From a virus, in the IMG/VR virus record IMGVR_UViG_3300031857_016723, positions 1-20,230 of that record: a stretch of 20,230 nt of DNA; one strand, written 5' to 3'. Under the pieces are notes generated by a model. It did no database searches. It saw nothing but the letters and a program-made list of their open reading frames with translations, and had not been told where the DNA came from. The position numbers and the translations under genes are program-made. This document shows positions 1 through 19,701 of the stretch, one piece after another; within the stretch, counting starts at the first letter, position 1; every line of letters starts with the position of its first letter.

Positions 1-90
1 GTGGACTTACTTGTGCCGGTTGAGGTGATGATGGACTTACTTGTGCCGGTTGAGGTGATGATGGACTTACTTGTGCCGGTTGAGGTGATG
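1..90. repeat. 30-bp perfect tandem repeat, three copies, cut by window edge
   Basis: Three consecutive 30-base units (1-30, 31-60, 61-90) are identical except for the first base of the first unit. A fourth unit decays after a few bases at 91. The period is a multiple of three and lies inside the minus-strand gene, where each unit encodes SSPQPAQVSP. The array may continue left of the window. There is no spacer between units, so it is not a CRISPR array. Confidence 0.97.
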
Positions 91-505
91 ATTGACTTAA
101 TCCTCTCAAAATTTTTGAGATTTGAGACCAAACCGTTTCTTCATCAATATCCCCATCCAAATCTGAATATAAATCAGTTCCATAAGTTGTTTTGTAATTT
201 TTAACAGCACTACAAAACGTATTAAAATCCTTAGTGGCGGTTAATGCCCCAAAGATAGAGTCTTCATCTGTTCCCAGACCTTGTACTGCTTTATAAATTC
301 TATCAACAATTTCATTTGTATTGTTGGGTGATTGTCTGGAGTTTCCACAAGAATCAAAAAATTGTCTAACCGCCTTTTGAGAACTACCTGACAGTATGTT
401 AGACCAAGGGTCTATTTGTTCACTAATCACATTTTTTTTACCTGAGTGCATCTCAAGGATTCTGTTTTTTTCTTCTTGAGAGATGTTATTAAATAAATTT
501 TTCAT
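1..505 (-). CDS. Annexin-repeat-like protein with Pro/Ser/Gln tandem repeat, C-terminus beyond window
   Basis: Read on the minus strand from ATG at 505-503, this gives 168 codons without a stop and runs off the left edge. Residues 1-30 form a charged helical leader (SQEEKNRILEMH, then ISEQ at 27-30). Residues about 62-134 resemble a single annexin repeat. GLGTDED at 76-82 matches the annexin type II calcium loop, an IFGALT helix follows, and YGTDLYSDLDGDI at 108-120 matches the annexin YGxDLxxDLxxE segment. Asp118 and Asp120 lie at the distance where annexins place the distal acidic ligand. From residue 139 onward SSPQPAQVSP repeats perfectly and continues to the window edge, which looks like a flexible linker to an unseen C-terminal domain. 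ATATTTAT lies 15 nt upstream of the start. I infer a virion or lysis-associated protein. The fold match is by motif only and calcium binding is untested. Confidence 0.85.
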   Translation of the reverse strand, partial: MKNLFNNISQEEKNRILEMHSGKKNVISEQIDPWSNILSGSSQKAVRQFFDSCGNSRQSPNNTNEIVDRIYKAVQGLGTDEDSIFGALTATKDFNTFCSAVKNYKTTYGTDLYSDLDGDIDEETVWSQISKILRGLSQSSPQPAQVSPSSPQPAQVSPSSPQPAQVSP

Positions 506-520
506 ACTAATATTTTTAAT

Positions 521-528
521 ATAAATAT
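521..528 (-). promoter_or_regulatory. ATATTTAT motif upstream of the annexin-like gene
   Basis: On the minus strand ATATTTAT lies 15 nt before the start codon at 505. The same octamer, in the sense orientation, precedes at least eight other genes in this window. It is probably the -10-like core of a phage promoter class. Confidence 0.5.
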
Positions 529-534
529 CAATAA

Positions 535-556
535 AAAAAACTTCGCGAAGTTTTTT
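535..556. terminator. Perfect 22-bp palindrome with A/T flanks (terminator-like insulator)
   Basis: Six A residues, CTTCGCGAAG, then six T residues form a perfect inverted repeat. It lies between two divergently transcribed genes and upstream of the promoter motif of each, so it does not end either gene. It could stop read-through from either side and insulate the two promoters. The central ten bases can also pair between strands, so a DNA-binding site is an alternative. Confidence 0.5.
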
Positions 557-1045: not shown

Positions 1046-1684
1046 ATGAAAGTTAAGTTTACAGATACGTTTAGTAAGTCCCTTGACCGACTTATTTGGC
1101 ACGAAAGTAAGATTTATAAAACGTATTCTTTGTTTAGATACGACATCCCAAGATTTTTCCGTAATCTTTGGTTGTTTCGTAAGAACTTATGGAACCATAC
1201 TTGGTATAACGGCGATGGTTCAGTTTTACCTTGGGTAAAAACGGCAGTTGATGATATGTCTTGGAGAATTGAGAAATACGGTCTTGAAGTTGATGAAAGT
1301 CGTTTGAAAAAAGTGGCAAAAATGAAGAGACTTTCATATTTGATTGACGTTTGTGTAAAAGACTCATTTATTGAAGAAGCTGAGAAAGAGTTGGGGTTTG
1401 AGTATATTTACACAAATTTTGAGTTTGAGGAAGTTCCTGACAAAACTTTTGACAATCCATTCGGTAAAGATGGTGAAAAACTATATCAGTTAAAGGACAA
1501 CGAAACTCCTGAACAAAAAGAAAGTAATGAAAAACTTCGTAAAAGGTCTCACGAGATTCAAAAAGAGTACTGGGAAGAGCTTTGTCAAATTATTAAAGGA
1601 CCTGACTATGACGCTATGAAAGCGTCTAATGAAGAATGGGATAAATTATATGACGGGTCCGATTTAAGGGCTTGGTGGGATTAA
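1046..1684 (+). CDS. Unknown Trp-rich phage protein (212 aa)
   Basis: This 212-residue protein has an aromatic, basic N-terminal part (about residues 33-62, with repeated FR, LW and W residues) and a long acidic, charged C-terminal part ending in WWD. I associate this aromatic N-terminal pattern with a hypothetical family seen in large phages, but I can name no function. There is no signal peptide, zinc motif or recognisable catalytic signature. It is the first gene of an apparent operon with nusG (12-bp gap) and the metallophosphoesterase, behind a TATATTTG box at 1020-1027. The start is preceded by an A-rich leader instead of a Shine-Dalgarno sequence, as is usual in Bacteroidota. Confidence 0.88.
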   Translation: MKVKFTDTFSKSLDRLIWHESKIYKTYSLFRYDIPRFFRNLWLFRKNLWNHTWYNGDGSVLPWVKTAVDDMSWRIEKYGLEVDESRLKKVAKMKRLSYLIDVCVKDSFIEEAEKELGFEYIYTNFEFEEVPDKTFDNPFGKDGEKLYQLKDNETPEQKESNEKLRKRSHEIQKEYWEELCQIIKGPDYDAMKASNEEWDKLYDGSDLRAWWD

Positions 1685-1696
1685 AAAATAAAAATT

Positions 1697-2218
1697 ATGG
1701 AATGGTATATTGTAAGGTCTCAGGCTAATAGAGAAAGAAAAGTTTCTGAGAGAATTATTAAAGAAGGTGAAAAAGGAGAACTAATTGGTGTAATCGGAAG
1801 AGTTGTTGTACCAACAGAAAAAGTTTTTACTACTAAAGACGGTAAAAAAACTGAAAGGGAAAAAGTTATATTTCCTGGATATGTCTTTGTTGAGACATCC
1901 GCAATAGGTGAATTAAAACAAGTTGTTAGACGAATACAAGGTGCAACTGGACTATTATCGGATAGAGCGGGGAATATACAAGTAGTACCTGATTCTGAGG
2001 TTAATAGAATGATTGGTATCCACGAAGAAAATAAAACTAAATCCTTTAGTGATATCTATAGTATTGGTGATGAAGTTATAGTAACTGACGGACCTTTCAC
2101 ATCATTTAAAGGTAATATTGAATATATTGATAAAGAAAAAGGCAAAGTAAAAGTAAATGTCCTTATCTTTGGCAGACCAACAATTGTTGAATTAGAAGAT
2201 ACCCAAGTAAAAAAATGA
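1697..2218 (+). CDS. nusG: NusG-family transcription elongation/antitermination factor
   Basis: This 173-residue protein has both NusG domains. The NGN domain (about residues 1-108) carries the opening WYIVRSQANRERKVSERI, VVVPTEKV, and the hallmark FPGYVFVE around 55-62. The KOW domain (about 120-173) reads GDEVIVTDGPFTSFKG and ends in the usual VLIFGRPTIVELE strand. Bacterial NusG is about 180 residues, so this copy is complete. NusG binds the RNA polymerase clamp through NGN and contacts Rho or S10 through KOW; specialised paralogues such as RfaH or LoaP act on selected operons. In a phage it would most likely alter the host polymerase's pausing or termination on viral genes (inference). 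It follows 1046-1684 by 12 bp and overlaps the next gene by the ATGA at 2215-2218. Confidence 0.95.
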   Translation: MEWYIVRSQANRERKVSERIIKEGEKGELIGVIGRVVVPTEKVFTTKDGKKTEREKVIFPGYVFVETSAIGELKQVVRRIQGATGLLSDRAGNIQVVPDSEVNRMIGIHEENKTKSFSDIYSIGDEVIVTDGPFTSFKGNIEYIDKEKGKVKVNVLIFGRPTIVELEDTQVKK

Positions 2219-2910
2219 GACTGACACTAATATCAGACACACATAACAAACAAAAGTATATCACTGAAGACTTACCTGGAGGTGATTTGTTACTTCATGG
2301 GGGAGATATATCTTCTATGGGATATAAACACGAGATTCAGGAATTCTGTAAGTGGTTTAATAGTTTGGATAATTACGACAATAAAATTTTTATTGCTGGT
2401 AACCACGATTGGGGGTTTCAAAGGAGACCTGACGAGTCTAAAGAAATTATTAATTCTTATAAATGGATTGATTATCTCCAAGACGAAGAAATTGGATTAC
2501 AAATTGGTGACGGACCTATGGTGAAAATCTATGGGACTCCTTGGCAACCTGAATTCTATAATTGGGCATTTAATTTACCAAGAAACGGATGGGAACTTGA
2601 GCAAAAATGGAATGATATTCCTGTAAATACAGATATTTTGATTACTCACGGACCTGCTCAAGGATATAATGATACTTCAGGACCTCCTTGGAATGAACCT
2701 ATGTTGGGTTGTGAATTATTGGTTAAAAGAATTAAAGAAATCAAACCAAAAATTCACTTGTGTGGTCATATCCATGGCGGTTATGGTTACATGTTTGATG
2801 GTGATACACATTTCATTAACGCTTCAGTGTTAAATGAAAGATATGATTATGTTAATAAACCACTCACGATTGAGTGGGACCCTGTAACAAACTCAATTGA
2901 GTTTTTATAA
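2215..2910 (+). CDS. Calcineurin-like metallophosphoesterase (MPPED/UPF0046-like)
   Basis: The 231-residue protein carries the full set of two-metal phosphoesterase motifs: D8-x-H10 in ISDTHNK, GGD31 in LLHGGDIS, GNH64D in FIAGNHDWG, TH145G in LITHGPAQG, and GH185-x-H187 in CGHIHGG. Motif spacing and length resemble the MPPED1/2 and UPF0046 group, which hydrolyse phosphodiesters or cyclic nucleotides with a dinuclear metal centre. The true substrate cannot be told from sequence; a nucleotide, nucleic acid end or signalling nucleotide is possible. Its ATG overlaps the nusG stop by four bases, so translation is probably coupled. A bidirectional terminator follows the stop directly. Confidence 0.92.
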   Translation: MRLTLISDTHNKQKYITEDLPGGDLLLHGGDISSMGYKHEIQEFCKWFNSLDNYDNKIFIAGNHDWGFQRRPDESKEIINSYKWIDYLQDEEIGLQIGDGPMVKIYGTPWQPEFYNWAFNLPRNGWELEQKWNDIPVNTDILITHGPAQGYNDTSGPPWNEPMLGCELLVKRIKEIKPKIHLCGHIHGGYGYMFDGDTHFINASVLNERYDYVNKPLTIEWDPVTNSIEFL

Positions 2911-2938
2911 AAAAACCCCTCGTAGTGAGGGGTTTTTA
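2910..2938. terminator. Bidirectional intrinsic terminator between convergent genes
   Basis: CCCCTC and GAGGGG pair around a short loop, with five or more A residues on the left and T residues on the right, so a U tract follows the stem on both strands. It lies between the metallophosphoesterase stop and the minus-strand aaRS-like gene stop. Confidence 0.92.
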
Positions 2939-2940
2939 AT

Positions 2941-3798
2941 TTAAAATGGATTTACATCTCCATAATTCATATGTTCTTCATGGTGTTCATCCATAAGTAA
3001 CTGATACGCTCTTGCTAATCTCGTCATACCGATACCACCACCAAATCTCTTAAAAAATTTGTGAGTTAAAAATTCTTCCAATTCGGACTCAACTCTTTCT
3101 TTACCGAACAACTCAAAAAGTTTAGAACAATACTTACCGTCCTCAATGTTGTAGAACATTTCTTTCATTTTTTCTACATCACAACTTCTCTCTGCAGAAC
3201 CAATAGTTTCTTGACCATACAATATAACATCAACTTTATTGTATTTGTCACCTTCACCATCTTTCATATTCCAAAAAGGATTTGTTCTTACGGGGAAATT
3301 TTGAAGAGAAATAACACTACCTTTTTCATTCCACATTTTGGTTTCATGTTCGTTTTCCAAAATCGGAACTCCACCATATTCTTCACAAACATCATCGTAA
3401 TTAACCTCAACAGGTTTGCCAAAACCTAAGAATTCTAATAACTCAGCTTCTAATCTAATAAGTTCTTTTAAACCACCCTTAGATTCAAATTCAAACATCG
3501 GGAAGATTAATTCATGTCTTCCTTCAATAGGATTCTTTTCTTGTCTGTATGATGTTGAAATACAATATACCCCATTCCATTCAGGATTTTTAAGTAATTC
3601 GTACTCTAACCACATTTGTCCTGTTTGGGGTAAGGGCCAAATCTGTCCATTATACTCAAATGTTGCAATTGAGTGGGGATTTTCACATGCTGCCAAGATT
3701 GATAATCTTGACTGTGTTGGAACTTCTTTGAACCCTTTTGATTTGAAGAAGGTTCTTAACTTCGTTACTAACTCGTCGTAAATTTTTGTGTTTTTCAT
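2941..3798 (-). CDS. Class II aminoacyl-tRNA synthetase-like catalytic core (Asn/Asp type), no anticodon-binding domain
   Basis: The 285-residue protein has class II aaRS motif 2 (YRQEKNPIEGRHE followed by FPMFEFE, about residues 88-110) and motif 3 (FGGGIGMTRLARAY near the C-terminus), plus an upstream LPQTGQMWLE segment. The RHE-x(5)-FE form of motif 2 is that of the Asp/Asn/Lys subclass. The protein begins almost directly with the catalytic core; the N-terminal OB-fold that binds the anticodon in AspRS and AsnRS is missing. Stand-alone cores like this include the archaeal AsnRS-related asparagine synthetase, so amide synthesis from aspartate or a modifying role is as likely as tRNA charging. 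I start it at ATG 3798; a TTG at 3810 adds four residues and sits about 8 nt after GGAGG. An intrinsic terminator lies immediately upstream. Confidence 0.88.
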   Translation of the reverse strand: MKNTKIYDELVTKLRTFFKSKGFKEVPTQSRLSILAACENPHSIATFEYNGQIWPLPQTGQMWLEYELLKNPEWNGVYCISTSYRQEKNPIEGRHELIFPMFEFESKGGLKELIRLEAELLEFLGFGKPVEVNYDDVCEEYGGVPILENEHETKMWNEKGSVISLQNFPVRTNPFWNMKDGEGDKYNKVDVILYGQETIGSAERSCDVEKMKEMFYNIEDGKYCSKLFELFGKERVESELEEFLTHKFFKRFGGGIGMTRLARAYQLLMDEHHEEHMNYGDVNPF

Positions 3799-3808
3799 AT
3801 AATTTAGC

Positions 3809-3833
3809 AAAAAAAATCCTCCCGAAGGAGGAT
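3809..3833 (-). terminator. Terminator/attenuator directly upstream of the aaRS-like gene
   Basis: On the minus strand ATCCTCC and GGAGGAT pair around a TTCG tetraloop and are followed by eight T residues. That is a textbook intrinsic terminator. It ends only about 10 nt before the ATG at 3798, leaving no room for a promoter in between. The 3' arm of the stem contains GGAGG. It could terminate a leader transcript, or hide a ribosome-binding site used by the TTG at 3810. Confidence 0.75.
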
Positions 3834-3924
3834 GGTTTATTTATTATTTGGTTTATTATTTTTCATTTTGAAATAAATACGATACTTTTTACAAAAAATA
3901 AAGGATTGTCATGTTTTTTTTAGT

Positions 3925-3967
3925 TTTTGTCAAATAGTCAGTAACAAAAAATAATTATATGACAAAA
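3925..3967. promoter_or_regulatory. Inverted repeat upstream of dnaK (possible operator)
   Basis: TTTTGTCA (3925-3932) is repeated in inverted orientation as TGACAAAA (3960-3967). GTCAGTAA also occurs twice directly (3937-3944 and 3969-3976). The elements lie just upstream of the dnaK -7 box. In such AT-rich DNA this may be chance. Confidence 0.25.
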
Positions 3968-3978
3968 TGTCAGTAAAA

Positions 3979-3986
3979 TAAGTTTG
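3979..3986 (+). promoter_or_regulatory. TAAGTTTG, likely dnaK -7 box
   Basis: TAAGTTTG matches TAnnTTTG and would give a leader of about 75-80 nt before dnaK. No TTTG is found at the expected upstream spacing. Confidence 0.4.
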
Positions 3987-4068
3987 GCACACAATTTAAT
4001 AATTTTATGTTCGGAACTTGATTCCATAAAATAAAAAACATATAATTTAACAAAAACAAAAAAACTAT

Positions 4069-5940
4069 ATGAATAAAATTATAGGTATTGATTTGGGAAC
4101 AACAAATTCTTGCGTAGCAGTAATGGAAAACGGAGAACCTGTTGTGATTACAAACAGTGAAGGAAAAAGAACCACCCCTTCTATTGTTGGTTTTGCAAAT
4201 GGTGGTGAAAGAAAGATTGGAGACCCGGCAAAAAGACAATCGGTAACTAATCCAGATAAAACGGTCTACTCAATTAAGCGTTTTATGGGTGCTAGTTTTG
4301 ATGAAACAAAAACTGAAACAAAACGAGTACCGTATAAGGTGATTAAAGGTGATGGAAACACACCAAGAGTTCAGATTGACGAAAGGAAATATTCTCCACA
4401 AGAAATTTCAGCAATGGTACTTCAGAAAATGAAACAAACCGCTGAAGATTATCTTGGTCAAGAAGTTACTGAAGTAGTGATTACGGTACCCGCTTACTTT
4501 AACGACTCACAACGTCAAGCAACTAAAGAGGCTGGTGAGATTGCAGGATTGAAAGTTCGTCGTATTATCAATGAACCAACCGCTGCGGCATTGGCTTACG
4601 GTCTTGATAAACAATCAAAAGACATGAAGATTGTTGTGTTTGACTGTGGAGGTGGAACACACGATGTATCTGTACTTGAACTTGGTGATGGAGTGTTTGA
4701 AGTTTTATCAACTGACGGAGATACTCACTTGGGAGGGGATGACTTTGACCAAGTGATTATTGACTGGTTGGTAAATGAGTTTAAAGACGAAAACGGATTG
4801 GATTTGTCCAAAGACCCGATGGCTCTTCAAAGACTTCGTGAAGGAGCGGAAAAGGCAAAGATTGAATTGTCATCATCTCCATCAACCGAAATTAATTTAC
4901 CGTATATTATGCCAGTTGATGGGGTACCAAAACACTTGGTAAGAACATTAACAAAGGCTAAGTTTGAACAGTTGGTAGATTCGTTAGTTCAAAGAACAAT
5001 TAAACCTTGCGACTCCGCACTTAAAAACGCAGGTCTTAAACCATCTGACATTGATGAGATTATCTTGGTTGGAGGTTCAACAAGAATTCCCGCAATACAA
5101 GAAGCGGTTAAAAAATTCTTTGGAAAAGACCCATCAAAAGGCGTAAACCCTGACGAAGTAGTTGCATTAGGTGCCGCAATTCAAGGAGGAGTGTTGGCGG
5201 GAGACTCAACAGTTAAAGATGTTTTACTTCTGGATGTAACACCACTTTCATTGGGTATTGAGACAATGGGAGGTGTATTTACAAAACTGATTGATTCTAA
5301 CACAACAATCCCAACCAAAAAATCACAGGTGTTCTCAACTGCGGTGGATAATCAACCTTCAGTTGAAATTCATGTTCTTCAGGGAGAAAGAGCAATGGCG
5401 AAAGATAACCGAACCATCGGTCGTTTTCACCTTGACGGATTACCACCTGCAATGAGAGGTATCCCACAAATTGAAGTTACCTTTGACATTGATGCTAATG
5501 GTATAATCAATGTGTCTGCACTTGACAAAGCAACGAATAAGCAACAAACTATTCGTATTGAATCGTCTTCAGGTTTATCAAAAGATGAAATTGAGAAGAT
5601 GAAAAGAGATGCTGAATTAAATGCTGAAAAAGACAAAAAAGAAAAAGAAGAGGTGGAGATTATCAACCAAGCAGATTCAATGATTTTCCAAACTGAAAAA
5701 TCTATGAATGATTTGGAAGATAAATTGACTGAAAATGACAAAAATGAAATTACATCATCTCTTGAGGAATTAAAAGATTCACACAAATCAAAAGACATTG
5801 AGAAAATCAAATCGTCAATGGAAAAGGTAAATCAAACTTTCCAAAAAATAACTCAAAACTTATATAATCAGTCTACCGAAAGTGGTGGTCAAGATTATGA
5901 AGTTAGTGACGTTGATTTTGAGGAAGTTAAACAAAACTAA
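4069..5940 (+). CDS. dnaK: Hsp70 chaperone DnaK, full length
   Basis: The 623-residue protein has every Hsp70 block. [11 protein letters not shown] opens the ATPase domain (phosphate 1 loop), and [17 protein letters not shown] and [11 protein letters not shown] follow. The phosphate 2 loop is DCGGGTHD at 192-199, then GGDDFD and VGGSTRIP. After the hydrophobic linker [13 protein letters not shown] comes the substrate-binding domain and helical lid, and the C-terminus ends in [10 protein letters not shown]. Bacterial DnaK is about 600-640 residues, so it is complete. It refolds or remodels client proteins in the cytoplasm with DnaJ and GrpE, neither of which is visible here. The phosphate 2 loop differs from the usual DLGGGTFD: Leu is Cys193 and Phe is His198, while Thr197 and Asp199 are kept. 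The FEEVK-type tail and overall identity point to acquisition from a Bacteroidota host. Its own promoter and terminator flank it. Confidence 0.98.
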
Positions 5941-7490: not shown

Positions 7491-8006
7491 TTATTTTTCC
7501 TTAATAAGATTTATACATCTTTTAAGATATTCTTTAGCTCTAGGTGATGGTGTATATTCATCATCCTTTGACTGTAATGCTAGTACTCTTTCAATATCTT
7601 TAACTAATTCAGTACCATGTTCATTTTCTTTATAAAGTTCAATTACTTTATCCATGGCACGATGACATTCACTTGAAGTTTCATCAAAATAATGTTTGTT
7701 TCTGAATTTGTTCAAATGATTCATCATTTCATAAGATAAATGTGCCCCACCATCAGAAACGTCTTTAAATAACCTTAAATTATTTAAAATACCTATAGTA
7801 TCCACCATTGAATTAACACCTCCTCCTCTTTTCATTACTCCTGGAGTGTAATGTACGTAATCATCCGATTTACCTACAATTTCATCTAATGAGATGGTAT
7901 TGTTAGATAAACACATAGGTTTTTTTTCTTTTGATTCAATCTCAGTTTCCTCAAGAATTCTTTTTCTAATAATTTCTCTGAGTTTTGATTCGTTTATTTT
8001 TTTCAT
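7491..8006 (-). CDS. Unknown helical protein with INESK/ILEE leader (171 aa)
   Basis: The first 20 residues (MKKINESKLREIIRKRILEE) form a basic amphipathic helix ending in I-L-E-E. The INESK part recurs inside the large protein at 16148-17863. The rest appears mostly helical, with a short GGG linker near residue 62, a CHRAMDKVIELY helix and a basic C-terminal helix. No known domain is recognised. ATATTTAT lies 19 nt upstream on the minus strand and GGAG about 14 nt upstream. I group it with the candidate virion/cargo proteins whose N-termini contain an [I/L]xE site, but this rests on shared leader and promoter motifs and not on homology to a known structural protein. Confidence 0.85.
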   Translation of the reverse strand: MKKINESKLREIIRKRILEETEIESKEKKPMCLSNNTISLDEIVGKSDDYVHYTPGVMKRGGGVNSMVDTIGILNNLRLFKDVSDGGAHLSYEMMNHLNKFRNKHYFDETSSECHRAMDKVIELYKENEHGTELVKDIERVLALQSKDDEYTPSPRAKEYLKRCINLIKEK

Positions 8007-9261: not shown

Positions 9262-10272
9262 TTATTTATCAAATCTACGTAAAGCATTTTCTGTGATAAA
9301 AACATATTCAGATTCTCTAAAATCATCCAAATATCTTGAATTAGTATATGACATCGCTGACTTTAAATAGTCTTTAAAGTTAGTTACCCATTGAGATAAT
9401 CGGTATTCAACTTTGTTAGTCCTATGAACTCCCTCTGAAGTTTTTAAAACCCCCTTACCCCACTTTCTTTGAACCGCTTTGGTACTCATACCTCGGAACT
9501 CTTTGTAGAAATATTTTCTCATTTTAGGGAATTTTTCCCATATTTTAACACCTAAATCCTGCGAAATTTTTATTTTGTTAAATAACTTAATATCAGAACA
9601 GGATTCCAATGTTTTATTTAACATCCCACCCAACATCACATAATCCGCACCTAACGCAATTGCTTTAATTATTTCATCGTAATTTTTAAAACCACCATCA
9701 GCGATTATTTTAGTATTATATCCATTTTCTTTTTTTATAGTAAAGCATTCATTGATTAATGATGCCATGGGGTAATGAACCCCTGTGTTTGCAGAAGTTA
9801 GACACCCACTACCACCACCAATTCCTACGCGAATATACCCAACCCCTAACTTTGCAAATTTTTCATAAGTCTTAGGGTTTGCGATGTTTCCAACCATTAA
9901 ATTTTTACCACTATTGGTTTTTAAAAATGTTTCACAGATTGAGTATAGTTTTTCCATATGGCCATTTGCAATATCAACTAAGATATATTCATTCCCATTA
10001 TAACCAAATTCAACCATTAGCTCAAATTCTTCTAATGAAACCGATTTAAAATGGTCATCTCTATTGGGAGTTACACCTCTGGGTAAACAAACCATAAACC
10101 CCAAATCATCAAATAATTCAGAATTACTTTGATTGATAACGGTATCCATTGGTGAAACCACTAAAGGTAGATATCCATTATCCGTATAAACACTTATTTC
10201 ACTTCTTGACCTAATAGAAGATAATGTTTCAGGAACTAACGTAATGTCTTTAAAATCAAATTTTTTATTCAT
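9262..10272 (-). CDS. IMP dehydrogenase/GMP reductase family protein
   Basis: The 336-residue TIM-barrel enzyme has the purine-binding C-loop GIGGGSGCLTSANTGV, with catalytic Cys157 and Thr159. Downstream come IIADGGFKNYDEIIKAIALGADYVMLG (substrate phosphate site) and FRGMSTKAVQRK with a following SEG (flap region). There is no CBS-domain insertion. IMPDH oxidises IMP to XMP towards GTP; GMPR reduces GMP to IMP. Length, the missing CBS domains and RGMS-x-x-A-x-x-K lean toward the GMPR-like side, but the two cannot be separated safely here. The C-loop differs from the usual GPGSxCTT: the Pro is Gly and CTT is CLT. It would let the phage shift the infected cell's guanine nucleotide balance. It is convergent with the cupin gene, sharing no bases. 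Confidence 0.92.
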   Translation of the reverse strand: MNKKFDFKDITLVPETLSSIRSRSEISVYTDNGYLPLVVSPMDTVINQSNSELFDDLGFMVCLPRGVTPNRDDHFKSVSLEEFELMVEFGYNGNEYILVDIANGHMEKLYSICETFLKTNSGKNLMVGNIANPKTYEKFAKLGVGYIRVGIGGGSGCLTSANTGVHYPMASLINECFTIKKENGYNTKIIADGGFKNYDEIIKAIALGADYVMLGGMLNKTLESCSDIKLFNKIKISQDLGVKIWEKFPKMRKYFYKEFRGMSTKAVQRKWGKGVLKTSEGVHRTNKVEYRLSQWVTNFKDYLKSAMSYTNSRYLDDFRESEYVFITENALRRFDK

Positions 10273-10335: not shown

Positions 10336-11307
10336 ATGTTAAATGAAAAACAAATAGATAGGATTAACCGTTTATTAGAAAAAGAAACTTTTAATTTTAA
10401 CGATGATTTTTTTGGTTACGAGTCTAAGAATTCGGACGTTGATTTTAAAATACAAATATTAGGGTATAGACCAATGATTTCTGTTGGTACGGAATATCCT
10501 TATATTAGAATTAAATTAATTTTTACTGAGTTTAAAGATTCCATTACCCAATTTGTATTTGGAAAATTGTCTAAATTTGGACTCAAAGAACTTACTAAAT
10601 CATTTAACGAAAATCTTTATTTTTTTAGACAAAAAATCAGTGAACAAATTATTGATATACTGAAATTTTTTGACCCGAAAAATGCCGAACATATAGTAAT
10701 TGATGAGATTGAAATTAAACATAATTTTGATGATGAGGTTATAACCGAACAAAAAAAGTCCAGACAATCAACTAGACAGGTGGTAAGAGATATCGTTAAT
10801 ATATTAAAAACAAAAACTGAAGGTATATTTTTATTACCTGAAGATGAGTTTTATGAGTTTAAAAACTACCCTACTTCATTTTCGGTTGAGGTTGATATTG
10901 AACACGATAATAGTAAAAAAGGATATAGTATAAATGCGGATTACGATACTGATGATGATATAGTTACGGTTACAATAATATGTAACCCAAAAACATTATC
11001 AAAAGACTTATATGACATGGTTGGAGAATTGAATGAAATAATAACTCATGAATTACAACATGGAATACAGTCGTCTAAGGGAGAATTGGATGACTATGAA
11101 CCTAGATGGGAAAGTAATTTAGATTATTATTTACAACCTCACGAAATTGAAGCCCAAATTAAAGGATTTAGAAGAATATCAAACTTAACTAAAACTCCGT
11201 TTAAAAAAGTTGTTAAAAATTGGTTTAAAACTCACGAAGATTTTCACAATCTAACACCCGAAGAAGAAGAAATAATAATTAATAAATTAATTGAGATTAA
11301 CTCTTAA
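10336..11307 (+). CDS. Two-domain protein with C-terminal HExxH zinc metallopeptidase-like domain
   Basis: The 323-residue protein starts with a helical leader (MLNEKQIDRINRLLEKE) and an unrecognised alpha/beta N-terminal domain to about residue 130. A polar linker with VITEQKKSRQS follows. The C-terminal domain carries IITHELQHGIQS, giving a zinc-site HExxH at His238-Glu239-x-x-His242. PHEIEAQIKG follows at 268-277, where His269, Glu270 or Glu272 could be the third ligand. The arrangement resembles small phage metallopeptidases, but no family can be named. In a virion setting it could process a structural protein or degrade a host component (inference). It ends 11 bp inside the convergent gene 11297-11926. 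Confidence 0.85.
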   Translation: MLNEKQIDRINRLLEKETFNFNDDFFGYESKNSDVDFKIQILGYRPMISVGTEYPYIRIKLIFTEFKDSITQFVFGKLSKFGLKELTKSFNENLYFFRQKISEQIIDILKFFDPKNAEHIVIDEIEIKHNFDDEVITEQKKSRQSTRQVVRDIVNILKTKTEGIFLLPEDEFYEFKNYPTSFSVEVDIEHDNSKKGYSINADYDTDDDIVTVTIICNPKTLSKDLYDMVGELNEIITHELQHGIQSSKGELDDYEPRWESNLDYYLQPHEIEAQIKGFRRISNLTKTPFKKVVKNWFKTHEDFHNLTPEEEEIIINKLIEINS

Positions 11308-11926
11308 ATCTTCTTAAAATTTTTGTAACAATTTCTTTAATCATATTACCTGAAATTGTTAATAGACCAAACCCAGCTAATCTAGCGGAAATTTCTTTAA
11401 TATCGTTTTGATTAAATTGTTCACTTTGAGCCATTTGAAATAACATGGGGATAAGAGGTAATATAAATGTGTAACTCATTATATTAGTTACCTTGTGTAA
11501 GGTTAAATTTAAACTAGAAATAAAATCAATAAAAGTGTCTCTAAACTCTCTACTTTTACTAACTGCAGATGTAAAAACTTCACTTAAACCTTTTTCATTA
11601 ATTGTAGAAACAATTTTTTTAATAAATTTTTTATTATCTAAATAATATATTGAGATAATACCAGTTAAAATTAAACTTAAATCACTTTCACTTAAATTTG
11701 GATTTTCACCTTTAATATAATCATTTAAAGGTCCTACAAATCCACCGATACTTGCCCCCCAAGTAATAAGAAACTCAAGATTCATACCCATTTGTTTGGA
11801 CGAATCTTTTATAATATTTTTTACAAATTCATAGTTGTGTTTAACAATCCCTGTAAATTGATTTATTGAGGACTCAACTAAAATTTGTTTTTTTTGGTGT
11901 TCGTTAATTAAAACAGTTATGTTCAT
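11297..11926 (-). CDS. Unknown helical/membrane-associated phage protein (209 aa)
   Basis: The protein has a short N-terminal leader with LINEH and ILVES and is predicted to be almost wholly helical. Hydrophobic stretches occur around residues 52-66 (FLITWGASIGGFVGP), 84-95 (LILTGIISIYYL), 148-166 (IMSYTFILPLIPMLFQMAQ) and 185-197. The GASIGGFVGPLNDYI and YTFILPLIP segments look like conserved blocks of a phage family whose function I do not know. Membrane insertion or pore formation during lysis or DNA entry would fit the hydrophobicity, without proof. A TATTTAT element lies about 7 nt upstream on the minus strand, back to back with the motif of the divergent gene at 11957. Confidence 0.82.
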   Translation of the reverse strand: MNITVLINEHQKKQILVESSINQFTGIVKHNYEFVKNIIKDSSKQMGMNLEFLITWGASIGGFVGPLNDYIKGENPNLSESDLSLILTGIISIYYLDNKKFIKKIVSTINEKGLSEVFTSAVSKSREFRDTFIDFISSLNLTLHKVTNIMSYTFILPLIPMLFQMAQSEQFNQNDIKEISARLAGFGLLTISGNMIKEIVTKILRRFKS

Positions 11927-12544: not shown

Positions 12545-12821
12545 ATTCAAACCCACTATCAGTTTGTATTGGAGTTACAGATAAATCCAAGAATACTGGA
12601 TTCCTTTCTCCAAAATACCCACCAATAATATTGTAATCATAAAATTCTTCAGCTTCTTCATATGTCATACCATCTCTTTTTTGGAGAATATCCAAAATCT
12701 TAGATTTAGAATACAGTATTCTATTTCCATTACCGAATTCTTCTACAATCCCAACAATTGCGGTTTCAAGACCGTCTAATAAAATGGAACCTTCGGCATA
12801 TTCGTCTAAATCAACTTTCAT
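12513..12821 (-). CDS. Conserved phage hypothetical protein (102 aa)
   Basis: The central block is very phage-like: AIVGIVEEFGNGNRILYSKS, KILDILQKRDGMTYEEAEEFYDYNII and GGYFGE. I believe this belongs to a hypothetical family widespread in T4-like and other large phages (motif EEFGNG-x-RILY then RDGMT-x-EEA-x-E). No catalytic motif is apparent and the role is unknown. Its ATG overlaps the stop of the RmlC gene by four bases (12818-12821), so the two form a translationally coupled pair on the minus strand. Its 3' end overlaps the convergent gene at 12544. Confidence 0.88.
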   Translation of the reverse strand: MKVDLDEYAEGSILLDGLETAIVGIVEEFGNGNRILYSKSKILDILQKRDGMTYEEAEEFYDYNIIGGYFGERNPVFLDLSVTPIQTDSGFEFNINSYTEPL

Positions 12822-13324
12822 TTGTTAAGTGTTTTTATATATTCATAAAAATCTAACGATGTATCATCTTTTTTATTAATCGTTAGTCGGTTATCCCCCA
12901 AGTAGTTTTCAACGACATCTGAAACCTCTTTAATACTACCCCAAAAAATACTTTTTTCATGTTCTACTGAGTAATCATTATCCACAAAATAATTTATTAC
13001 GGTGTTGTGTTTTAAAGTCAAAAAACCATGAGCAAAACCTTTGGGTACATATAAACTATCACCTTCTTCCATTTCATAGTGATAAACTTTACCTAATTCA
13101 TCACCAACTAAACCAACAACAATATCAACAATTTTACCTTTTAAAACTGTAATTTGTTTTGATTGACGTTTAGGAGGTTCCTGTAAATGAAGACCTCTTA
13201 GAGTGTATATGTGTTCATTAAAACTTATGTTACTTTGAATCCAACCCTCTTTAATTGGTATTGGGATAAAAGAACCCCTATTATCATAAAAAATAGGTTG
13301 TTTTGAAATTATCGGAGTTTCCAT
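12818..13324 (-). CDS. rfbC: dTDP-4-dehydrorhamnose 3,5-epimerase-like protein (RmlC family)
   Basis: The 168-residue cupin-fold protein follows RmlC from end to end. It shows YDNRGSF near residue 13, TLRGLHLQEPPKRQSKQITVLKGKI at 41-65 with the catalytic-type His46, VPKGFAHGFLTL at 93-104, and NYFVDNDYSVEHEKSIFW at 111-128. RmlC epimerises C3 and C5 of dTDP-4-keto-6-deoxyglucose in dTDP-rhamnose synthesis; related sugar epimerases act in other deoxysugar pathways. The family is usually about 180 residues, so this copy is complete but compact. No rmlA, B or D is nearby, so it would feed on host intermediates or use another nucleotide sugar. I start it at ATG 13324; an upstream TTG at 13354 would add ten hydrophobic residues not typical of the family. 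A TATATTTT box ends four bases before this ATG. Confidence 0.92.
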   Translation of the reverse strand: METPIISKQPIFYDNRGSFIPIPIKEGWIQSNISFNEHIYTLRGLHLQEPPKRQSKQITVLKGKIVDIVVGLVGDELGKVYHYEMEEGDSLYVPKGFAHGFLTLKHNTVINYFVDNDYSVEHEKSIFWGSIKEVSDVVENYLGDNRLTINKKDDTSLDFYEYIKTLNK

Positions 13325-13383: not shown

Positions 13384-13956
13384 ATGAACTCATACTTTTT
13401 CAAAATGAATCAGGCGGAAAAAAACGATATTCTTGACCAACATAAAAAGATTTATGATGGTTTTGCAACACAATACGCACAATCCAATACACAACCATTA
13501 TATGTTCAAGACTTTGCAAATGACAAAGGTGGAATTACCGTTAATAACAAAGGTGATGTTAAAACATATACTAATATGAACATTAATGAAGATGTTATGT
13601 CTGGTGCAAAGTTTGAACCCGAAGTTAGTTTTGATGAATATGTTAGTATGGGAGAACAATTAGATATGATTGGTGATGGTCCTACTGATATGGAACACGG
13701 TACCTTTGATGATAAGTCAGATTTAGATTGTACTCATTGTGGTGGATTAGGAATAGATGAATTTAATGATGAAGAATGTGAATGGTGTGGAGGAACTGGA
13801 TTTGAGGATAAAGGCTCTCATCATTTTGATTTAGAACCTGAGTTTGAGGATATTGATGATTTAGATATTGATGAACTTGATATTGACATTATGGAACCTC
13901 TCCAAGAACAAGTTAATAAAACTTTGGACATGTTCAGAAGATTTAAAAACTATTAA
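13384..13956 (+). CDS. Acidic protein with DnaJ-type CxxCxGxG zinc knuckles (190 aa)
   Basis: Residues 8-20 (MNQAEKNDILDQH) resemble the leader of the annexin-like protein (SQEEKNRILEMH), which suggests a shared targeting segment. In the middle two motifs, CTHCGGLG at 116-123 and CEWCGGTG at 132-139, match the CxxCxGxG repeat of the DnaJ/Hsp40 cysteine-rich domain. Two repeats are enough for one zinc site; DnaJ itself has four. There is no J domain. The C-terminal region is strongly acidic, with ID/DI dipeptide runs at 156-169, then PLQEQ and a basic tail. It could bind unfolded protein, or use the zinc knuckle for stability. A link to the phage DnaK is tempting but unproven. An alternative start at Met8 exists. 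Confidence 0.87.
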   Translation: MNSYFFKMNQAEKNDILDQHKKIYDGFATQYAQSNTQPLYVQDFANDKGGITVNNKGDVKTYTNMNINEDVMSGAKFEPEVSFDEYVSMGEQLDMIGDGPTDMEHGTFDDKSDLDCTHCGGLGIDEFNDEECEWCGGTGFEDKGSHHFDLEPEFEDIDDLDIDELDIDIMEPLQEQVNKTLDMFRRFKNY

Positions 13957-14879: not shown

Positions 14880-15128
14880 ATGAAAACTGATATTGACTCA
14901 ATCATAAGAATCATGAGGGATTACACTCCCAAAAACTCAAACGGTGAAATCGGAGAACAAGAATCAGCACCACCGTCATCAGGAGGTGGAGGTGCGAAAC
15001 CGGCATACCCTACAGTTACTAAGTGGGAAAGTGGTGTTGCTAGAACAGGACCCGCTAATCAAATTGGTCTAACTAAGTGGAGTGATATTGTAAAATTAAC
15101 AAGAGGTAAGGCAAATACCCTCTTATGA
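14880..15128 (+). CDS. Small phage protein with conserved KWESGV/TRGKAN tail (82 aa)
   Basis: The 82-residue protein has three parts: a helical leader (residues 1-15), a low-complexity linker with IGEQ at 24-27 and PPSSGGGG at 31-38, and a compact tail. The tail reads YPTVTKWESGVARTGPANQI, then LTKWSDIVKLTRGKANTLL. I believe this KWESGV-x-R-x-GPANQI with a TRGKAN ending recurs in small proteins of other large phages, which suggests a virion component, but I cannot name one. IGEQ fits the [I/L]xEQ pattern seen in its neighbours. It starts right after an ATATTTAT motif and is followed after about 45 bp by another gene with its own copy of that motif. Confidence 0.82.
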   Translation: MKTDIDSIIRIMRDYTPKNSNGEIGEQESAPPSSGGGGAKPAYPTVTKWESGVARTGPANQIGLTKWSDIVKLTRGKANTLL

Positions 15129-15172: not shown

Positions 15173-16141
15173 ATGAGTTTAGATAAGAAAAAATTAGGAG
15201 AAGAAGAATTAAAAAGAGCTCTTCTTATGATGAAATACGATAGTCGTAAAACTTTAAGTGAGAATACCAATGATTTAATACTTGAGCAAATAAACTGTCC
15301 AAATGCGTATAACGCTAGTATTATTAATCAAAAAGCATTTGATATACGTGATTTAATTGAATACATTGATACCACAGGTTTTAGAATGTTCAATTTAGAA
15401 GGAAGATGTAAAGAAATTTATGACACAATAAAAGATTTATCTCAACACAATTTTTATAATGATTTAGAAAAAACCTGTGAAAATAGTTTGAAAAGATTTA
15501 AAGAGGAGTATTTAACTACCGGCAATGTGTTTTTTACTAATAACTCAATTGAGGAGCAAATACAAGAAATTCTTGACGATTATGTTGCGGATGTAAGTGT
15601 GGAGGCGGCAAATTATTTGAGGTCAACTTTAAAGTTAATTGCTGAAAATGAAAATAAATTAGCTGGTGGTACGGACCAAGTAGACCCACAAGAAAACCAA
15701 GTATCTCAAAACGCAAAAAAATGTGGATGGTTAAAAACAGATGGTAGTGCCGATGTTGAGGGTTATAGAAATTCAAATTGGAAATGTCCTAAATCAGGTA
15801 AAAGTGATGGAGGAACTGTTAAAAATAAATATATAGCTTGTAAAGGAACTAAAGATGACCCATTTAGAAAGGGTTGTTATGAGGCAAATATACAAGGTCC
15901 ATTACATCAAGTTCAAACATGTATTGGAGTAGTATCAGATGGTAAGTTTTGGACTAAAACAGAATCCGAATTAATCAATAAAACCCGAAAAAGTACCTTC
16001 ACTACTGATGATGTTAATACAATATGTAATATAAAACCAAACCCTGAGACACCGCCCAAGACAAATCCTTTTAGGGGATGGACATCAGTTGAACCTGAAG
16101 GTGGTGAAACAACAAATAATCAACGACAAGCAGAAGGATAA
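15173..16141 (+). CDS. Unknown Cys-containing phage protein with IxEQ leader (322 aa)
   Basis: Residues 1-39 form a charged helical leader containing ALLMMKYDSRKTLSEN and ending LILEQ (ILEQ at 36-39). A helical region (about 45-165) follows. A cysteine- and glycine-containing region at about 183-255 (KKCGWL, NWKCPKSGK, YIACKGTKDDPFRKGCYEA, QTCIGVV) looks like a small disulfide- or metal-stabilised domain. The C-terminus is a Pro/Thr/Asn-rich tail. No known family is recognised. It is followed after 6 bp by 16148-17863, so the two are co-transcribed and may act together. The leader, the ATATTTAT promoter motif and the repetitive tail make a virion or injected protein plausible, without direct evidence. 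Confidence 0.87.
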   Translation: MSLDKKKLGEEELKRALLMMKYDSRKTLSENTNDLILEQINCPNAYNASIINQKAFDIRDLIEYIDTTGFRMFNLEGRCKEIYDTIKDLSQHNFYNDLEKTCENSLKRFKEEYLTTGNVFFTNNSIEEQIQEILDDYVADVSVEAANYLRSTLKLIAENENKLAGGTDQVDPQENQVSQNAKKCGWLKTDGSADVEGYRNSNWKCPKSGKSDGGTVKNKYIACKGTKDDPFRKGCYEANIQGPLHQVQTCIGVVSDGKFWTKTESELINKTRKSTFTTDDVNTICNIKPNPETPPKTNPFRGWTSVEPEGGETTNNQRQAEG

Positions 16142-19083: not shown

Positions 19084-19701
19084 ATGAGAACTCTTCTTCT
19101 AATATGTGGTATGATAATCTTGTCTTTCTTCATTAAAGACGCGGTTAAGGAAAACAAATCATATAACATTAATGAGGTAAGGATTGAACAACCCTCATTA
19201 AAACAAGAGAAAGAAAAAACTAAGTCAGAGACAAAACCAAATCCTGAACCAAAAAAGAAAGTAGTTTATTTGAGAGGATTGGGTAAATTTACACCATCTG
19301 ATTTGGAAGAATTCAAAGGGTATATTAAAGAATTGTATAATTATGATGTAGTTATATTGGACCCAGTACAGACCAAATCACAGATGTACACACCTGATGG
19401 TAGGTCTTTGGAGGTTAGTGAATGTATTTTTTCACTAAATAACTATGATAAAACAACAATCTATATTACCGATGAAAATTTGGTGACTGAAGATTTAGAA
19501 GTTCGTGGTGGTACTTATCTGAACTGTAAGACAGTTATTATTGAGTCCGGAAATTACAATAAAGATACAGTATTACACGAATTAGGGCACACATTAGGAT
19601 TGGAGCACTGTGATAATCCAAAATGTTTAATGGCGATTTATAATGATGAACATATCACAAATGATTTTTGTGATGAATGTAAAAAGAAATTAAAACAATG
19701 A
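19084..19701 (+). CDS. Archaemetzincin-like zinc metalloprotease with N-terminal membrane anchor
   Basis: The first 18 residues (MRTLLLICGMIILSFFIK) are a signal anchor or signal peptide. A charged, Pro/Lys-rich linker (about 30-60) leads to the catalytic domain. That domain has the archaemetzincin signature: HELGHTLGLEHC at 165-176 gives HExxHxxGxxHC, C181-L-M183 follows after four residues, and CDEC at 196-199 gives the final CxxC. Members of the family have HExxHxxGxxxCx4CxM with a distal CxxC that binds a structural zinc; the distance from Met to CxxC is shorter here (12 residues). Glu166 would be the catalytic base. It probably acts outside the cytoplasmic membrane, in the periplasm (inference). 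Physiological substrates of this family are poorly known. It overlaps the next gene by ATGA. Confidence 0.93.
   Translation: MRTLLLICGMIILSFFIKDAVKENKSYNINEVRIEQPSLKQEKEKTKSETKPNPEPKKKVVYLRGLGKFTPSDLEEFKGYIKELYNYDVVILDPVQTKSQMYTPDGRSLEVSECIFSLNNYDKTTIYITDENLVTEDLEVRGGTYLNCKTVIIESGNYNKDTVLHELGHTLGLEHCDNPKCLMAIYNDEHITNDFCDECKKKLKQ

Follow-up and report, generated by a model that had tools for sequence, protein, structure and literature searches.

The window analyzed here, a viral record of 20,230 bases, carries at one end a minus-strand gene whose product combines a short N-terminal leader, a single annexin-like repeat and a Ser/Pro-rich tail (Table 1). The start codon at 505 is favored over an in-frame ATG at 586 because the homologue in L002 is 74% identical from residue 1, and translation from 505 to 2 yields MKNLFNNISQEEKNRILEMHSGKKNVISEQIDPWSNILSGSSQKAVRQFFDSCGNSRQSPNNTNEIVDRIYKAVQGLGTDEDSIFGALTATKDFNTFCSAVKNYKTTYGTDLYSDLDGDIDEETVWSQISKILRGLSQ and then SSPQPAQVSP three times over before the contig ends. 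The sequence-only reading had recognized in this product the motifs of one annexin repeat in their proper order and spacing, and all were found again: GLGTDED at residues 76-82, IFGALT at 84-89 and YGTDLYSDLDGDI at 108-120. Its placing of the domain at 104-322 holds as a location, but helix E of the repeat runs on until roughly residue 138, and the part of the protein that is informative begins at residue 1, at position 505. Genes of the window match one related contig (G001) near 291-315 kb and in its first kb, and another (G002) near 84-121 kb, with their order largely kept. On this synteny, the window most likely represents part of the genome of a T4-like jumbo phage.

Table 1. Features of the leader and annexin-repeat gene, its upstream region and further genes of the window
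Feature	Position	Strand	Remarks and basis
Leader and annexin-repeat protein gene	2..505	(-)	168 codons, truncated by contig end; ORF listing
Residues 1-29, predicted leader MKNLFNNISQEEKNRILEMHSGKKNVISE	419..505	(-)	Predicted cleavage before Q30; common to otherwise unrelated proteins at about 85-97% identity; I-S-E end; N-terminal enrichment
Residues 30-61, pre-helix and linker	323..418	(-)	Helix 42-53 in AlphaFold model
Residues 62-135, annexin-like repeat, helices A-E	101..322	(-)	PF00191, PDB sequence search, shuffle test, model and fold searches
G76-L-G-T79, type II calcium-loop motif GxGT	269..280	(-)	GTD invariant in nearly all aligned domains
D119, distal acid	149..151	(-)	Aligned with annexin V bidentate Glu; D/E in 23/23 aligned domains
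30-nt unit x3 encoding SSPQPAQVSP (10-aa Ser/Pro)	2..91	(-)	Repeat search and translation; array runs past contig end
ATATTTATA element	520..528	(-)	Upstream of start 505; also before several window genes
Perfect 11-bp inverted repeat AAAAAACTTCG/CGAAGTTTTTT	535..556	.	Upstream of annexin-repeat gene
Class II tRNA-synthetase-like (asparagine-synthetase-like)	2941-3795	(-)	
IMP dehydrogenase/GMP reductase-like	9262-10272	(-)	
dTDP-sugar epimerase-like	12818-13324	(-)	

Profile searches and structure prediction both assign the domain to the annexins. In Pfam-A the window protein matches PF00191 with E=2e-5 and 25.0 bits, which is exactly the curated cut-off (25), and the L002 homologue reaches 29.1 bits. 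The best PDB sequence matches are likewise annexins, the best single repeat having an i-Evalue near 2e-5. With a profile built solely from three bovine annexin repeats, the domain scored 42.3 bits, the highest score among 5000 shuffles being 10.6. An AlphaFold2 model from a 14-row alignment (pLDDT 82, pTM 0.72) consists of a pre-helix and five helices, A-E. Foldseek against the PDB ranked annexins first, with probabilities close to 1 but weak E-values of about 0.2. VIA-align recovered annexins, giardins and annexin fusions; its top match had a Z of 8.8, of a size that can be middling for helical domains, and an rmsd of 2.1 across 72 residues.

Since bacterial annexins were included in that alignment, an independent test was run on a set (A7) of nine phage domains preceding a lysozyme or zincin-like domain, with zero annexins in the alignment. 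The PDB sequence search again ranked annexins first (E 7e-10), the set matched A4 at 97.4% probability by hhalign, and the best matches of its model (pLDDT 82) were once more annexins and giardins, with Z 9.3 and rmsd 3.1 over 79. The case for an annexin fold is made by the agreement of sequence and fold and not by Z values alone. It could be argued that the likeness to annexins arose by chance in a short helical domain that contains a GLGTDE motif, given that the Pfam score merely equals the cut-off, that there is one short repeat and that helical bundles easily reach middling structural scores. We regard this as very improbable in view of the margin over the shuffled sequences and the recovery of annexins, by sequence and by fold, from two sets of which one had no annexin in its alignment. 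Our profiles and models thus support the view that the gene encodes an annexin-type repeat, as the sequence-only reading had proposed; neither a non-annexin fold nor a better match to another family emerged.

The annexin fold is familiar chiefly from animal proteins that bind calcium and membranes, and the type II site of annexin V comprises a GxGT loop and a Glu some 40 residues downstream. By alignment, the window protein has the loop G76-L-G78-T79 and the acid D119. The acidic distal ligand expected by the sequence-only reading is present, but its Asp118 and Asp120 are renumbered D117 and D119, the latter being the residue that aligns with the bidentate Glu. Retention of the putative calcium ligands extends to the relatives: the distal column is D or E in every one of the 23 phage and bacterial domains, strongly diverged ones included, and most of them retain the glycines of GxGT, the first Gly being degenerate in a few enzyme-fused members (e.g. 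YWMGTD in L005). The repeat would most likely be an accessory adaptor whose attachment to the host membrane, or to a partner, depends on calcium, though for calcium-dependent binding to a membrane in particular our confidence is low. Studied eukaryotic annexins act with four repeats, and calcium is low in the bacterial cytosol; both points count against such an adaptor. In the main rival, which we likewise entertain only tentatively, the repeat works independently of calcium, as a structural or protein-protein module binding, for example, to DNA, the prohead core or a further virion protein, with GxGTD kept for folding. The solitary repeat, the degenerate loops of some members and the occurrence of the repeat at either the N- or the C-terminus all fit such a module, whereas the invariably acidic distal position and the widespread glycines speak against it.

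A search with the whole protein returned many contigs that match well in the first ~30 residues alone, mostly at 83-97% identity (65% over 23 residues in L015), and the remainders of these leader-sharing proteins (L004-L015) are mutually unrelated. An iterated leader profile gathered 31 ORFs that share the pattern I[ST]xxE[KR]xxIL..[HY], with [LI]xEQ as the usual ending. The window leader itself ends ISE|Q, which fits the L/I-X-E motif after which T4 gp21 cuts to free IPI-III and Alt of their capsid targeting sequences; these are proteins that enter the host along with the DNA (PMC9026906, PMC7411985). Among 541 genes of a 322-kb and a 261-kb phage, [LI]xEQ occurred within residues 9-45 of 38, roughly 5-fold above an expectation of 7.3 derived from the internal parts of these proteins. 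N-terminal [LI]xEA was enriched 3-fold in this set. There was also enrichment of [LI]xxEQ, which probably stems from the many leaders with two aliphatic residues before xEQ; the controls [FVY]xEQ, [LI]xDQ and [LI]xEK gave no N-terminal enrichment in the 541 genes. Furthermore, a protease of the gp21 family (PF03420) is encoded in ten related contigs (G001, G002, G003, G005, G006, G008, G010, G011, G016 and G019), several of which also carry gp23-type capsid proteins, and the capsid protein of four close relatives has a conserved FLINE|A. The 20-kb window fragment contains neither gp21 nor gp23.

From these comparisons, the N-terminal 29 residues are likely a head-targeting leader removed by a prohead protease, and we consider packaging and cleavage of the window protein to be fairly probable. 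Leaders in T4 are roughly 10-20 aa long as against 29 aa here; this difference counts against the assignment, as does the lack of gp21 and gp23 in the window fragment. The shared N-terminus might instead be another kind of signal, such as a sorting tag for tail or membrane-associated proteins or a regulator of translation, since the claim for these phages rests on comparison of sequences and [LI]xEQ will arise by chance in some genes (~7/38). We think this unlikely: both the motif and its position fit gp21, gp21 homologues occur in the ten related contigs, the control motifs are unenriched and the leader has no hydrophobic core suited to a Sec signal. The head-targeting-like leader also supports and sharpens the earlier suggestion of a virion or lysis protein on the virion side; a role in lysis is unsupported for the window gene, although the same module is fused to lysozyme in its relatives.

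Similar short leaders begin five other window proteins, at 13384-13956 (+), 11297-11926 (-), 7491-8006 (-), 15173-16141 (+) and 14880-15128 (+), with MNSYFFKMNQAEKNDILDQH, MNITVLINEHQKKQILVES, MKKINESKLREIIRKRILEE and, in two, LILEQ or EIGEQ. Several of these may be head proteins too. The ATATTTATA element upstream of the annexin-repeat gene recurs, as ATATTTAT(A), some 10-30 bases before many starts (505(-), 11926(-), 8006(-), 13384, 14880, 15173, 8364 and 10336) and is possibly a phage promoter. As a specific mark of leader genes it was unsupported, the counts for TATTTATA being 4/20 versus 40/275 and 7/20 versus 42/263.

Further phage repeats were sought with a 5-sequence profile, for which reversed ORFs as a control gave <=9 bits. 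In L055 the leader MKTYIKNFNSFVLNEQ is followed by an annexin repeat. Of two adjoining genes in L052/L053, one encodes the repeat shortly behind LSSLISEQ and the other encodes it at the C-terminus, and two genes in L054 both encode C-terminal repeats; hence the repeat is not always adjacent to the leader, which is a point against the head-protein model set out below. Elsewhere the module precedes an enzyme. In L041/L088 and L089 a leader ending ILIEQ or KLIEQ and the repeat are joined to a lysozyme (PF00959, E 3e-25 in L041), and in L042/L071, L005 (two genes) and L072-L075 to a zincin-like domain with the motif HEIQH. Judged on this motif alone, the HEIQH proteins are zincin-like and probable zinc proteases; they have no significant match in Pfam. 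The annexin domain of the enzyme-fused members was called by profile and fold comparisons only, single-sequence Pfam scans of these members not calling it, and the individual scores of those in L005, L072, L073 and L074 are weak, with added support from the set profile. Zincin-like homologues devoid of the repeat still carry leaders ending EISEQ, NLDEQ or LLSEQ, so leader and repeat appear to be separately swappable parts. L005 itself holds three tandem paralogous HEIQH proteins at 1113-4713 (+) with two different leaders, two of them with the annexin-like repeat and the one at 2444 without. We also considered the window gene as the positional counterpart of the annexin-lysozyme gene of G002, but dropped this idea, the nearby phosphoesterase not being clearly in the same arrangement.

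In the phage isolate records of INPHARED (50,697 phage records, tblastn) there was no convincing homologue, the whole protein giving weak matches with E 0.4 or above, and three other phage annexin-like domains were unmatched there. PHROGs returned weak matches only, to families of unknown function, and a structure search of BFVD gave no significant match. Of two scans of genome contigs, the first found none and the second found bacterial annexins.

Taken together, the annexin fold and motif, the common leader, the L/I-X-E site, the gp21 and gp23 homologues and the reuse of the module form the computed basis for a model that we somewhat favor, in which the product of the window gene belongs to the internal head proteins of a T4-like jumbo phage, is processed by the prohead protease and ejected, and carries an annexin module. 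The leader-bearing protein would be drawn into the prohead core by its 29-residue capsid-targeting propeptide, which a gp21-type protease would trim after ISE29, leaving the single annexin repeat and Ser/Pro linker in the mature head. Upon infection the protein would be ejected together with the DNA, a step towards which we lean, and the repeat would then tether it, or an enzyme joined to it, to the host membrane, the Ser/Pro repeats serving as a linker. It is tempting to speculate that annexin repeats are general, swappable calcium-sensing membrane adaptors on head-packed, ejected proteins of some T4-like phages, a lysozyme and zincin-like proteases among them, in parallel with the annexin-bearing toxins of phage-derived injection systems. 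In this broad form the proposal is doubtful.

Comparison with known systems helps to place the protein. Eukaryotic annexins (A4, A5, A6) share the repeat fold, the GxGT loop and the distal acid, but arrange four or eight repeats in a curved core, whereas one repeat is seen in the 168 codons of the window gene, which is truncated at the contig end. The T4 proteins IPI-III and Alt resemble it in that a short N-terminal propeptide with an L/I-X-E end is borne by unrelated proteins, although their leaders differ in sequence and length; to our knowledge, the T4 internal proteins have no annexin repeat. Bacterial annexins (Cytophaga hutchinsonii and others; here L056, L057 and L059) are alike in the single repeat, GxGTD and distal acid; those with one or few domains are often found in Bacteroidetes and some are fused to metalloproteases (PMC3894181). 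They are, however, encoded by bacteria and lack a capsid-targeting leader, while the window protein is phage-encoded and has a leader. The closest functional parallel is provided by toxins delivered by PVCs, which are phage-like particles; in these toxins one annexin domain precedes an enzymatic domain, metallopeptidases included, and has been proposed to assist in breaching the membrane of the target (PMC3482391). Lists of eCIS-associated domains likewise include annexin (PMC8213781). Such toxins are injection cargo aimed at other cells, as opposed to phage proteins with a leader of the prohead-protease type.

A 2014 survey of bacterial annexins recorded none in viruses (PMC3894181), and text searches of an open-access library gave no report of a phage annexin. 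The annexin repeat and the capsid targeting sequence are each of a known kind; what is new is their combination in T4-like phages and the reuse of the module before enzymes. If true, annexin repeats behind head-targeting-like leaders in several T4-like phages would constitute a phage reservoir of annexins, point to a step in which ejected head proteins attach to a membrane, and connect the cargo of phage heads with that of contractile injection systems where it bears annexin. The larger result, beyond the domain itself, is the leader together with the recurring architecture. From the leader sequence, candidates for head-packaged proteins can also be listed in jumbo phages that are uncultured; the strict [LI]xEQ motif gives ~20 per genome, some of them expected by chance.

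The remainder of the window encodes complete homologues of Hsp70 (DnaK) at 4069-5940 (+), with a score of 871 bits and 75% identity to the DnaK homologue of G001, and of NusG at 1697-2218 (+). A Peptidase_M54-like protein with HELGHTLGLEH lies at 19084-19701 (+) and a protein with HELQH at 10336-11307 (+), putatively two zinc peptidases within one 20-kb window.
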